Below are positions 4,431-57,385 of a stretch of DNA of 64,000 nt, piece after piece. The translations under genes were made by a program, and so were the position numbers. The DNA comes from Desulfoluna sp. (GTDB lineage Bacteria; Desulfobacterota; Desulfobacteria; Desulfobacterales; Desulfolunaceae), in contig NZ_JAQYWB010000018.1 of NCBI RefSeq assembly GCF_030145185.1, positions 1 through 64,000 of the forward strand, in the 5' to 3' direction. The notes under the pieces are model-generated. The model was not told the origin of the DNA and did not search any database. It saw nothing but the letters and a program-made list of their open reading frames with translations. Positions within the stretch are counted from its first letter, which is position 1; each line of letters begins with the position of its first letter.

Positions 4431-6094
4431 AAAAAGTACTCGGGCATATCGAAGGCCTGAAGGCCAACCAGAAGAAACGCCTGGAATCCCTCTACCGACG
4501 GCGCCTCCCCCAAGGGGTCGCCGTCAACGCCGACCTGGCCCACGAGCTGGCCACCCTCAGCCATGAAATCAGAAGACAGGTGGCCGTTCTTGCCACTCGC
4601 GCTGGAAAAGTGGAGTTCGTCATTGTCGGCACCCCGGATCAGATCTACATTCCGGAGCTCAAGGGCTACACCCCCCTGCCGGGTCGCCTTCTCGGACTTC
4701 GGTATATCCACACCCACCTCAAGCCCGAGGAGGGGCTGAGCCGAGACGACCACACCGACCTTGCCCTGCTTCGCTTTGACCTCATGGCCGCCATCACCTT
4801 GACCCCTGAAGGATCGGTGCACCGGGTCCACACCGCCCACGTCACCCCCGAAGAGACCGGCAGCCCCACCATCGAGCTGCCCCCCATGGCCCCAGGCCAT
4901 CTCCGCGATGACCTGGACGTTATCGTGAAGGAAGTTGAAGAGGAACTGACCCGTAAAGAACGGGTTCTCTCCGCCGGAGATGCCGAAGAACGGGCCATTC
5001 TGGTCAGCGTCACGACTCGCCCTCGAAAAGAGGCCATGGGATCCCTCCATGAACTCGAAGAGCTGACCCGATCCTGCAACATCGATATCGTGGAAACCGT
5101 GCTTCAAATTCGCAAAAAAAATGACCCCAAGCACCTCTTAGGAAGCGGAAAACTCAGCGAAATCACCATCGCCGCCATGCAGAAAGGTGCCTCCATCCTC
5201 ATCTTTGACCAGGAGCTCTCCCCGGCACAGATCCGCTCCATCACCGATCAGGTAGAGATAAAAGTCATTGACCGCACCCAGATGATCTTAGATCTCTTTG
5301 CACGACGGGCCCAGACACGGGAAGGCAAACTCCAGGTGGAGCTGGCCCAGCTCAAATACATGCTCCCGCGACTGATCACCTTAAACACCGCCATGAGCCG
5401 TCTCACCGGCGGAATCGGAGGTCGCGGCCCCGGTGAAACCAAACTCGAGCTCAACCGACGGCGCGTGAGGGACCGCATCACCGTCCTGTCCAAACAGATT
5501 GAGAGCGTCAAAATACAGCGAGGCCAGCAACGGGCCAAACGCAACCGAAAAGGGGTCCCCGTGGTCTCCATTGTCGGTTATACCAACGCGGGGAAATCCA
5601 CCCTGCTCAACACCCTGACCCAAAGCCGGGTCCTGGTGGAAGACCGCCTTTTCGCCACCCTGGACCCCTCCAGTCGGCGTCTTCGATTCCCAAAGGATAT
5701 CGAAGTGATCATCACCGACACCGTCGGGTTTATCCGGGACCTGCCCAAAGAGCTGATGGTCTCCTTCCGGGCCACCCTGGAAGAGTTGGAATCGGCGGAT
5801 CTTCTTCTCCACATCATCGATGCCTCCAATACGCAATGCAAAAAACAGATCGATTCCGTGGAAAAAATCCTCTCAGACCTGAAGCTCGACGCCATCCCCA
5901 CCCTGAAGGTGTTCAACAAAGTCGACCGCATTGATAACGAGAGACGCGATGGACTCTCCAGAGAGCATGGGGGCCTCTTCATCTCCGCCCTTAACCGCGC
6001 CACGCTGACCCCACTGCTCCACGACATCGAAGATCGAATAGAAACCCTCCTCACCGACACCCTTCCGGAAGATCTGCCGAGCATGGATGAATAA
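4427..6094 (+). CDS. hflX: GTPase HflX with N-terminal JAMM-like extension
   Basis: HflX is a ribosome-associated GTPase that splits stalled or stressed 70S ribosomes. At 555 residues it is much longer than the usual 360-430. Residues from about 190 are canonical HflX: the GTP-binding N-terminal domain (VSVTTRPRKE, HLLGSGK), the glycine-rich GGIGGRGPGETKLE, then the G domain with G1 GYTNAGKST (near 384), G3 DTVGF (near 431) and G4 NKVD. The ~190-residue extension holds E63 in KVEFVIVG and HTHLKPEEGLSRDD, that is H95-x-H97-x7-S105-x2-D108, which is the JAMM/MPN+ metal-site pattern. This suggests a metalloprotease-like domain fused to HflX; that part is inference from motif spacing. The ATG overlaps the dnaB stop. 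Confidence 0.95.
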   Translation: MKKVLGHIEGLKANQKKRLESLYRRRLPQGVAVNADLAHELATLSHEIRRQVAVLATRAGKVEFVIVGTPDQIYIPELKGYTPLPGRLLGLRYIHTHLKPEEGLSRDDHTDLALLRFDLMAAITLTPEGSVHRVHTAHVTPEETGSPTIELPPMAPGHLRDDLDVIVKEVEEELTRKERVLSAGDAEERAILVSVTTRPRKEAMGSLHELEELTRSCNIDIVETVLQIRKKNDPKHLLGSGKLSEITIAAMQKGASILIFDQELSPAQIRSITDQVEIKVIDRTQMILDLFARRAQTREGKLQVELAQLKYMLPRLITLNTAMSRLTGGIGGRGPGETKLELNRRRVRDRITVLSKQIESVKIQRGQQRAKRNRKGVPVVSIVGYTNAGKSTLLNTLTQSRVLVEDRLFATLDPSSRRLRFPKDIEVIITDTVGFIRDLPKELMVSFRATLEELESADLLLHIIDASNTQCKKQIDSVEKILSDLKLDAIPTLKVFNKVDRIDNERRDGLSREHGGLFISALNRATLTPLLHDIEDRIETLLTDTLPEDLPSMDE

Positions 6095-12787: not shown

Positions 12788-15634
<2,847 letters not shown>

Positions 15635-15702: not shown

Positions 15703-15964
15703 AAACAATCGTAACTATTCAGTTTATGCCTCCGGCGGCCCTGCCGGGGGCTAAACTTTTAAAAAGTTTAACAAACAGGTTTTAAAAAAACTTTTTGGGT
15801 GAATTTTTACTTTAAAGGCGGATGTGATTTGACCCGAGGAATCCGCCTTCGCCCGTGTCTGTGAGTCATAGCCCAACCCGTGTCAATGGGCTACGGCGCG
15901 ACAAGCGAGGGGCAAAGCGCATCCGCCGGAGGCTTTTTTGGGAGCTGAATAGTTACAAACAATC
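15703..15964. mobile_element. MITE-like element (246 bp) with TIRs and 8-bp target duplication
   Basis: The element spans 15711-15956. Its ends are perfect 12-bp inverted repeats, GTAACTATTCAG at 15711-15722 and CTGAATAGTTAC at 15945-15956. Both sides are flanked by the same direct 8-mer AAACAATC (15703-15710 and 15957-15964), the footprint of a transposition. It codes for no protein. Inside are GCCTCCGGCGGC and its inverted partner, a 9-bp palindrome in A/T (15752-15770), a TAGCCCA/TGGGCTA hairpin (15869-15893) and the motif GATTTGACCCGAGG. The right-hand duplication overlaps the stop codon of the FHA gene. The same motifs recur at many intergenic sites in this window. The mobilising transposase is not here. 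Confidence 0.85.
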
Positions 15965-16742
15965 AAGCCAAAGAGGCCGAGGGAACCTCCCCATTCGAGG
16001 GCTGGTTTTCTCCGTCCACTTTGCGCATCCGAACTTTGGAGAGAAAGCGAAGGTTGGATTTTCCCAGGGTCACCGTGTCACCATGCGAGAGTTTCACAGG
16101 CTCCTTGCCCACCTTAACCCCGTTCAATCGGGGTTTGATCAAGCCGGAGACATGATTCAGATAATACCCATCATCCCGTCGGACCACAGTGGCTGCTCTT
16201 TTCCCCACCAGAAAGCCTTTTACCACCACCTCATTGGACCGGGCACTTCCCATCCGCGTGTAGCGATTCCCTAACTCAATACGCCCTCTCCCGCCCTTTT
16301 TAAAGACGAGGATCGGAAGAGGTTTCTTCGAAAGACCTTTGACAGAGCGCTGCTGACCGTTTTTCAGGTCCGACATGTCAAGAGCCATGGTGACGTCCAG
16401 GCTCCCGGCTCTTAAGGCTGTCAGGGGTGTTTCATGGAAGGTAACGTCCGCTCGGTTCTCCGAAAAAAGAAGCTGATGCTTTCCCACCCCCAGTTCGTCC
16501 CCATTGCCCAGGACGGCTTTGCTCACGCGTTTTCCGTTAACATAGGTCCCATTCTTACTCTCAAGATCGGAGACAACAACGCTGTCTTCCCGAAACTCCA
16601 CACGGGCATGGAACCCGGAGACCGCGAGGTTACCGATAATAACATCGTTCTTTTCGTTCCGACCAATGGAGAGGGGGTACCCATACTCCAAAGCGTATTG
16701 CCGGATCATTTTTCCTTGGTATTTAAGTATCAGAAACGGCAT
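15963..16742 (-). CDS. FHA-domain protein with two FHA modules
   Basis: FHA domains bind phosphothreonine peptides. The first module (about residues 20-95) is canonical: SIGRNEKND, SGFHA and SKNGTYVNGK keep the phosphopeptide-contact residues Arg, Ser and Asn. The second (about 150-240) is weaker: RMGSARSNEVVVKG, NGVKVG and HGDTVTLG retain the strand pattern, but the SxxH position is not conserved, so it may not bind phosphate. Between them is a linker rich in Leu and basic residues. There is no kinase domain. It is 259 residues, and its stop codon lies within the 8-bp duplication of the adjacent mobile element, which therefore inserted exactly at the gene end. Confidence 0.85.
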   Translation of the reverse strand: MPFLILKYQGKMIRQYALEYGYPLSIGRNEKNDVIIGNLAVSGFHARVEFREDSVVVSDLESKNGTYVNGKRVSKAVLGNGDELGVGKHQLLFSENRADVTFHETPLTALRAGSLDVTMALDMSDLKNGQQRSVKGLSKKPLPILVFKKGGRGRIELGNRYTRMGSARSNEVVVKGFLVGKRAATVVRRDDGYYLNHVSGLIKPRLNGVKVGKEPVKLSHGDTVTLGKSNLRFLSKVRMRKVDGENQPSNGEVPSASLA

Positions 16743-23473: not shown

Positions 23474-23510
23474 GCCTCCGGCGGCAAGGTGAGCCACCTT
23501 GAAAGCTGGT
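23474..23510. repeat. REP-like repeat, module A
   Basis: GCCTCCGGCGGC is followed by the hairpin CAAGGTGAGCCACCTTG and GAAAGC. It lies between rlmB and comF, directly upstream of the comF start. Confidence 0.8.
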
Positions 23511-40718: not shown

Positions 40719-41015
40719 GCCTCCGGCGGCAAGGTGAGCCACCTTGAAAGCAGGTATGATTATTTATTTCCAGCCGCCTGAGAACATAGAGGAATGAAAT
40801 CGACAGGGAACAAATAGCAAAAATATGCCCCATCCAAGGCATCACGGCAGCACCCGCAGCTTATGCGCTTGCGGCGTACGATGCACCCCCTCACCCGTAA
40901 CGCGAATGCGGACGCGAGGCGCCCAGAAGACCGACAGCCTTAGAGCATTCGCAAACCCGCTTTCAAGGTGGCCCCACCTTGCCGCCGGAGGCTTCTTTTG
41001 GAGCTGAATAGTTAC
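40719..41015. repeat. Composite REP-like element with a MITE-type right end
   Basis: It starts with module A (40719-40754: GCCTCCGGCGGC, AAGGTGAGCCACCTT) and ends with the inverted copy (40951-40992). GCGAATGCG (40902-40910) and GCATTCGC (40945-40952) form module B. The right margin is CTGAATAGTTAC (41004-41015), identical to the terminal repeat of the 246-bp element. No matching left terminal repeat or target duplication was found. Confidence 0.8.
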
Positions 41016-42109: not shown

Positions 42110-42261
42110 GCCTCCGGCAGCAAGGCGTGCCACCTTGAAATCAGGTTTGCAGATGCGCTTTGGTTTGATGTAAATCTGAGATAGCCACCAAGACCTGTTT
42201 GTTCAACTTTTCAAAAATTTAACCCCCGGCAGGGCCGCGAAGGCACAAGCTGAATAGTTAC
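42110..42261. repeat. REP-like element joined to an inverted MITE end
   Basis: Module A (GCCTCCGGCAGC, stem AAGGCG/CACCTT) is followed from about 42192 by ACCTGTTTGTTCAACTTTTC and CCCCCGGCAGGGCCGCG, ending CTGAATAGTTAC (42250-42261). This second half is the reverse complement of the left end of the element at 15711, with a few changes, so it is a truncated relative. Confidence 0.75.
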
Positions 42262-47358: not shown

Positions 47359-47607
47359 CCCGAATATTTCACGAGTCGAGTGCACCCATATTCAAGGCAT
47401 CAGTGCTGCAGATCTATTGGTTTACCTCAAAGCTCTGATAACGCAGAAGATGGGTGCACTCGGCTCGCCCGAAGGGTGAGAAAGGCGAGCAGAAAACGGT
47501 GAAATACATTTTGCATTTTTGAGACGCCTATTCCTTTCTTGATAACCCGCTGTAATAAAATACCATTATTTTGGCATGGCCGTTTTCTCATGAAATATCC
47601 GGGTTAA
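47355..47607. repeat. 253-bp inverted-repeat element upstream of the TetR gene
   Basis: Ends are 21-base imperfect inverted repeats, TTAGCCCGAATATTTCACGA(G) at 47355-47375 and its partner at 47587-47607, matching at 18 of 21 positions. Inside lies a second inverted repeat, GAGTGCACCCAT with ATGGGTGCACTC (about 47378-47389 and 47452-47463). There is no coding sequence. The architecture suggests another non-autonomous mobile element, unrelated to the one at 15.7 kb; no target duplication was confirmed. Confidence 0.6.
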
Positions 47608-57166: not shown

Positions 57167-57190
57167 CCATCGGACTCGGTCAATATAGTT

Positions 57191-57385
57191 TCGTGCACGT
57201 CTTCTGACTTCCGGGGTAAAACCTCACCCGACGCGCCTTCCCGCCTCCCTTTAAAAGAAGCAGTGACTGTTGTTTTAAGCAAAAACAACCTGCGCCGGGT
57301 CACCCGGTTACAGCGGCGGGACCGTCACGGATTTTCACCGTAGTTCCGTTTGCATGACACCGTATGACAAATAGTTAATGCACCC
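57191..57385 (-). promoter_or_regulatory. Cobalamin riboswitch
   Basis: On the minus strand the conserved blocks appear in order: ACGGTGAAAATCCGTGACGG, CCGCTGTAACCGG, CAGTCACTGC (B12-box region), GGGAAGGCG, and CCGGAAGTCAGAAGACGTGC. GGTGCA near its 5' end can pair with TGCAC at the 3' end to close the aptamer. It controls the ThiC-family gene through the terminator that follows. Confidence 0.93.

Follow-up and report, generated by a model that had tools for sequence, protein, structure and literature searches.

The window, i.e., the whole stretch of 64,000 nucleotides of Desulfoluna sp. DNA that was analysed, harbors a 246-bp MITE (15711-15956, forward strand) between two convergent genes: on the forward strand a gene ending at 15634, which we take from its sequence to be uvrA-like (12788-15634), and on the reverse strand an intact FHA-domain gene of 259 codons (15963-16742; PF00498). 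The element is bounded by terminal inverted repeats (TIRs) of 12 bp, the left one being GTAACTATTCAG (15711-15722, forward strand), a sequence that also ends insertion sequences (ISs) of the IS66 family, and the right one reading CTGAATAGTTAC (15945-15956, reverse strand). Two copies of the octamer AAACAATC flank it (15703-15710 and 15957-15964), 8 bp being the duplication length of the whole MITE family. Inside the element are located a left hairpin repeat, GCCTCCGGCGGC-CCT-GCCGGGGGC (15728-15751, forward strand), a palindrome, TAAACTTTTAAAAAGTTTA (15752-15770, forward strand), and a right head, GCCTCCGGCGG, pointing inwards (15922-15933, reverse strand). For comparison with other copies the element was divided into a left part of 131 bp (15711-15841, forward strand), which was used for similarity search and tree, and a right part (15842-15956, forward strand), which was compared by eye with another copy (L302).

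The first-pass annotation had described a MITE of 246 bp whose 12-bp TIRs are exact and whose 8-bp target duplication is perfect, and the sequence from 15703 to 15964 bears this out. It had also placed the insertion at the stop codon of the FHA gene. This is right in so far as the last two bases of the right octamer belong to that codon (TGA, the complement of 15963-15965), but the stop was not destroyed: the MITE lies 6 bases past it, and, since two of its bases are inside the duplicated target, the duplication preserved both the 259-codon frame and its stop. The only ORF of at least 60 aa overlapping the element (139 aa) starts inside it, at 15855, and continues beyond it antisense to the FHA gene; being short, non-coding, and bounded by TIRs, the element has the anatomy of a MITE. 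It folds far better than shuffled sequence on both strands (z -6.0 and -5.0), owing largely to the pairing of its ends and heads. The effect on the host at this site is probably small, the convergent gap being longer and both coding sequences intact. The Rfam search of the window returned a cobalamin riboswitch (RF00174, 68.2 bits; 57177-57377, reverse strand) as the only match at gathering level, and none for the GCCTCCGGCGGC repeat.

A search of the genome for further copies with the same ends and 8-bp duplications, proposed in the first-pass annotation, was successful on both counts. The exact TIR 12-mer occurs 197 times in the 5.79-Mb draft genome from which the window comes (hereinafter, the own genome), against a single occurrence of the reversed-letter control, and duplications of 8 bp accompany other copies. 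In five congeners the same 12-mer was counted 154, 145, 134, 62, and 1 times. Nine matches (at most two mismatches) are present in the window, where 1.93 are expected, and none of 100 shuffles reached nine; this excess and the genome-wide counts exclude a chance origin of the TIR. The similarity search of the own genome with the MITE gave at least 68 matches, 40 of the 507 first-look candidates having been scored, while a pattern joining the end to the GCCTCCGGCGGC head retrieved 68 stretches of genome contigs, whose named records all belong to Desulfoluna or to the MAG GLD-1. Congeneric copies located at different sites, those of D. butyratoxydans among them, are up to 99% identical. Plasmids, phages, and viral contigs were rejected as vectors of the MITE, as no match was found in the plasmids or phages searched, nor was the end-plus-head pattern found in viral contigs (11 TnpC pattern hits appeared there, none of them confirmed). 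That the family belongs to Desulfoluna, and that it is in itself an ordinary kind of element, is well supported.

The members of the family differ in structure. Two related elements of the window carry a TIR at the right end only (40719-41015 and 42110-42261, both on the reverse strand). Different interiors are enclosed by the same ends in the loci L041, L045, L052, and L320, one such type measuring 356-632 bp and containing the palindrome TTTCCCGCGCAGGCGGGAATCC. Miniature units of 51-65 bp, composed of little beyond the two ends and a GCC hairpin, are present in L322, L323, and L185 (4827-4877), with duplications matching at 7/8 positions in L322 and L185 and none in L323.

The hairpin repeat of the interior has a distribution of its own. 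The own genome contains 612 exact GCCTCCGGCGGC heads, some accompanied by a TIR and others not, and no occurrence of the reversed sequence. The window contains 14 matches (at most one mismatch); three of them follow a TIR at a distance of up to 40 bp, and two of the three belong to the MITE itself; exact heads without TIR start at 23474, 25245, 29370, 40719, 43398, 48642, and 55289. The head is also enriched in G093, G097, G267, and G329, genomes of other families of the phylum. The TIR-less repeats might be taken for decayed MITEs, as truncated copies of a Coxiella MITE are described as coming to resemble REPs in one review (PMC10969869), and some elements here keep a single TIR. However, this explanation appears unlikely on the basis of three observations. 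The first is the number of heads with no trace of a TIR: within 45 bp, even allowing four mismatches, no TIR accompanies 38 of the 78 right-type heads of Desulfoluna, and the same is true of 11/86 left-type, 7/15 D-type, and 44/64 other heads, these counts covering the window and the 68 stretches, which were picked by the TIR pattern, so that TIR-bearing heads are over-represented. The second is the presence of the head in 76-103 copies in G329, G097, and G093, where no TIR (at most one mismatch) was found in 34 loci. The third is the position relative to genes, established with crude ORF-based gene models: TIR-less heads (a pattern-defined subset) follow the 3' end of a same-strand gene in 46 of 70 cases overall and in 38 of 47 with a gap of less than 50 bp, and they avoid divergent gaps (5 of 64 versus 76 of 307 gaps, p 0.0024, after exclusion of 11 heads at the edges of stretches and of 4 within long ORFs), whereas MITEs with duplications show no such avoidance (6/33, p 0.52, six edge cases left out).

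The repeat also possesses a structure, consisting of a 7-bp stem that starts from base 12 of the head and whose arms vary yet stay complementary. This stem is found in 61 of 93 TIR-less repeats of Desulfoluna, with five arm types (control mean 3.1, maximum 8), in 14 of 20 repeats of G329 and G097 (control 0.06), and, as a weak signal, in 3 of 10 repeats of G093 (control 0.43, maximum 2). Since TIR-less heads are common, are biased towards gene 3' ends, and occur in other families, the repeat carried by the MITE is probably older and separate from it. It follows that the element carries the GCCTCCGGCGGC repeat but probably does not explain its spread; the idea of the first-pass annotation that the internal motifs reveal how the wider repeat family spreads is not supported by the 3 of 14 window heads near a TIR, by the enrichment in other families, or by the TIR-less loci there. 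A REP/RAYT (REPtron) interpretation of the GCC repeat was rejected for the own genome, where heads are not in excess beside Y1 transposases: the 15 Y1-transposase loci (40,970 bases) contain two exact heads, about four being expected from the genome average. Inverted pairs of 1.1 kb are present in G329, and the genes flanked by the two pairs that were read are unlike Y1 transposases.

The target duplications were analysed on pairs of TIRs with at most two mismatches per end, 33 from own-genome loci and 53 from the 68 congeneric stretches; the lengths of the pairs range from 51 to 668 bp (most often 211-216 in the congeneric set). A perfect 8-bp duplication flanks 10/33 own and 26/53 congeneric pairs, and at least 7/8 positions match in 13/33 and 38/53, respectively (51/86 together), the means with shuffled partners being 0.155 (maximum 1) and 0.59 (maximum 3). 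At lengths of 4-7 or 9-12 bp, perfect flank matches number only 0-2 per length. The pairs without a 7/8 duplication are 20/33 in the own genome, where some are nested or alternative pairings (overlapping alternatives exist in L018, L052, and L054), and 15/53 in the congeners. Of eight further own-genome stretches, two harbor a long element (632 and 456 bp) flanked by a perfect duplication, three have pairs matching at 7/8, two have pairs without duplication, and one has a lone end. The duplicated targets are 69% A+T (n = 51). Duplications of a fixed length are therefore found at many independent sites, as in MITEs, and that length, 8 bp, is the one characteristic of IS66.

The existence of empty sites was investigated in two ways. 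When queries made of joined flanks were compared with the loci in hand, one of 50 gave a non-self match across the junction, in which a 213-bp D. spongiiphila copy with duplicated GAAATATC corresponds to an uninterrupted repeat of the same species with a single target (211 bp, 78%); the flanks of this copy also align to own-genome copies of the target repeat at 72-73%. The target repeat, some 200 bp in length, is an unrelated, second repeat of intergenic regions, seen in the window at 47393-47604, in L158 at 4647-4856, and in L286 at 1-214. The gap between the uvrA-like and FHA genes was then read by eye in the congeners: a related element lies between uvrA and its terminator in D. limicola (G001), a composite related element is located downstream of the terminator in G002, G004 has only a GCC-headed repeat, and no MITE exists in G005 and G003, where the alignment shows the element to be absent, the gap being too diverged for an exact single AAACAATC octamer to be discerned. 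The gap thus reveals presence/absence polymorphism, and the one informative query an uninterrupted target. The first-pass annotation had named a lack of other copies, together with fixation at this site, as the outcome that would speak against it; copies abound and the gap is empty in two congeners. The G002 insertion and that of the window may share an origin. The perfect octamer, together with a divergence of about 20% between the flanking genes, argues against a great age of the window insertion.

GTAA ends and 8-bp duplications are traits of IS66, and they pointed to this family as the source of the transposase, which was then supported by ISs found in G017 and G027, genomes representing two other families of the same order as Desulfoluna. 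In G017, two ISs of 1758 bp and a relative of 4086 bp are bounded on either side by exact GTAACTATTCAG and lie between equal flanks of 8 bp, while in a third 1758-bp IS (L125) the equal flank lies at a further copy of the end, 75 bp outside. In G027, an IS of 1718 bp has equal flanks, one exact end, and one end with a single mismatch. The proteins encoded by these ISs belong to the IS66 transposases (PF03050, E 2e-35 to 1e-46), one of those of G017 also matching NF033517 with 292 bits (cut-off 180). The first-pass annotation had suggested seeking an IS with the same ends, and the ends of the MITE are indeed identical to those of ISs encoding an IS66-family transposase; a C at position 13 is common to these ISs and to 143 of the 159 exact MITE ends. 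The 4086-bp element (L126) contains a DruA-domain gene (PF14236) in addition to two IS66 transposase genes. The comparison of 80 MITEs with these ISs gave matches for 28, all of 15-24 bp and all terminal, and no interior derived from an IS by deletion was found among the 80; the MITE is therefore assigned to the IS66 type on account of its ends and is not classed as a deletion derivative.

The search for a transposase within the genus gave a different picture. No intact IS66 element ended by GTAACTATTCAG was found in the six genus genomes, drafts of which may miss multi-copy ISs, and thus no autonomous partner in the same genome as the MITE. PF03050 had no match in G002, G003, G004, or G005, and the complete chromosome of D. 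limicola harbors only a wrecked PF03050 fragment with one stop, 24% identical to the G017 protein, near an end reading GTAACTACTCAC. One pair of TIRs in D. butyratoxydans (L128), the only one of about 2 kb noticed among the end positions listed, was considered as an autonomous copy and rejected; it encloses an apparently transporter-type gene and has unequal flanks, which suggests that it is probably two separate elements. Same-ended IS66 elements thus exist elsewhere and none was found intact in the six genus genomes, so that the kind of mobiliser is well supported, its present location not.

The own genome does contain IS66 genes. Two are full-length (L063, 3533-5110, with ends GTAAGCGTTCAC, and L064, 3683-5260; identity 95.8% along 1578 bp), and the third, with end GTAAGCGTTCAG, is truncated. 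These resident elements, which share GTAA...TTCA with the MITE ends, might move the MITE despite the difference between the ends; this is very unlikely, as 3-4 of the 12 end positions differ, young MITE copies are present in D. butyratoxydans and D. spongiiphila, which gave no PF03050 match, and ISs having exactly the MITE ends are found in other families of the order. Even less credible, to the point of being practically dismissed, is the view that the elements are palindromic repeats of a REP-like nature, which recombination or some other process would have spread, with incidental TIRs: although their interior is common to a more numerous hairpin repeat that is often TIR-less, the 8-bp duplications are tied exactly to the TIR ends, an uninterrupted target exists, and IS66 ISs have the same ends.

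On the basis of these sequence comparisons, the MITE is most probably a non-autonomous DNA transposon of the IS66 kind, moved in trans by an IS66-type transposase (we assign to this reading a probability of roughly 0.88). This agrees with the first-pass annotation, which had regarded the element as non-coding and mobilised from elsewhere, and is in line with its anatomy, with the other copies having the same ends and 8-bp duplications, and with the existence of same-ended ISs.

As regards the origin of the window copy, its left 131 bp are 94-98% identical, over at least 110 bp, to 20 copies of D. butyratoxydans and D. spongiiphila (10 in G005 and 10 in G002). The best values are 88% in D. limicola and 85% in G004, and, among the scored own-genome copies of at least 110 bp, identity does not exceed 92% (116 bp), other own copies being mostly at 78-92%; 40 candidates were scored per genome. 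One own-genome fragment of 78 bp (C117) matches the left end of the MITE at 94%. In a tree of 95 left halves, built on 130 columns and with an unsettled bootstrap, the window copy falls in a supported set (98/83) with 13 D. butyratoxydans and 5 D. spongiiphila copies, and with none of the 30 own-genome copies. The genes beside the MITE are about 80% identical between the own genome and G002, and 76-79% between the own genome and G005. Since the copies are so similar while the genes are about 20% apart, vertical inheritance would require the copy to be unusually conserved, and nothing of the kind is seen in the other own copies. It is therefore probable that the left part moved between species. 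For most of the right half no closely related copy was found, the best match being 83% (40 candidates per genome), and a comparison by eye with the 214-bp standard copy L302 shows an insertion of some 60 bp and a deletion of some 30 bp, both internal; transfer is thus supported for the left half and not for the whole copy, and the window copy may be a mosaic.

In the mechanism that we propose, an IS66-family DDE transposase of the single-gene tnpC type would act in trans, binding the 12-13-bp ends GTAACTATTCAG(C) and moving the non-coding segment lying between them. The segment would be joined to staggered cuts 8 bp apart, whose repair would produce the 8-bp duplication. The transposase may have been resident or passing, and since lost from the genomes seen, the wreck in D. 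limicola being what it would have left. The window copy, or at least its left half, would have come from a lineage similar to D. butyratoxydans or D. spongiiphila before the insertion at this site. A broader scenario can be put forward very tentatively, since as a whole it is unlikely: a genus-wide MITE family might outlive its own transposase by passing on incoming DNA, being moved by a briefly present IS66, and then remaining stranded, while a body made of the host's 3'-end hairpins might render insertions beside genes tolerable and make the element a carrier for a pre-existing structured repeat.

The literature searched contains no occurrence of the MITE end sequence, the matches for the GCCTCCGGCGGC head being only in four papers seemingly unrelated by title. 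No paper combining Desulfoluna and "transposable" was found, nor any IS66-ended MITE by title or abstract start, and the term "IS66" is absent from a 2024 review of prokaryotic MITEs (PMC10969869). The less ordinary features of the Desulfoluna MITE are that no intact same-ended transposase was found in the six genus genomes examined, and its likely transfer between species.

The comparisons tie an intergenic repeat that is abundant in Desulfoluna, and of which the literature searched gave no description, to a definite transposase family, and they separate two look-alikes, i.e., a mobile element with IS66 ends and a hairpin repeat with a conserved head near gene 3' ends. Moreover, copies that are 94-98% identical across species whose genes have diverged by about 20%, in genomes where no intact matching transposase was found, make the persistence of orphan MITEs directly testable.

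REP repeats, which are associated with RAYT (Y1) transposases, are short hairpins near gene 3' ends with a conserved head and a varying stem. The GCCTCCGGCGGC repeat resembles them in all these respects and differs in the absence of a head excess at the 15 own-genome Y1 loci. QMITE2 of Coxiella burnetii is located primarily in 3' untranslated regions, and its truncated, TIR-less copies resemble REPs, according to the same review (PMC10969869); the TIR-less repeat of Desulfoluna, in contrast, shows enrichment in further families of the phylum as well and seems a separate, older repeat. Chunjie, from Geobacter uraniireducens, is described there as a largely intergenic MITE that reaches 235 bp and exists in both complete and partial form (PMC10969869). 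The Desulfoluna family is likewise a bacterial MITE with full and partial copies, a likeness of description, and it differs in having 134-197 end copies in each of four genomes. As for IS66 itself, one paper gives, for the captured elements ISPpa5a and ISPpa7, a table value of 8, read here as the length of the direct repeat (PMC3281130). Although the MITE pairs have no transposase gene, measure 51-668 bp instead of about 1.7 kb, and enclose an unrelated interior, they share with the IS66 ISs of the single-tnpC type the 12-13-bp ends of the G017 and G027 elements, the GTAA start, and the 8-bp duplication.
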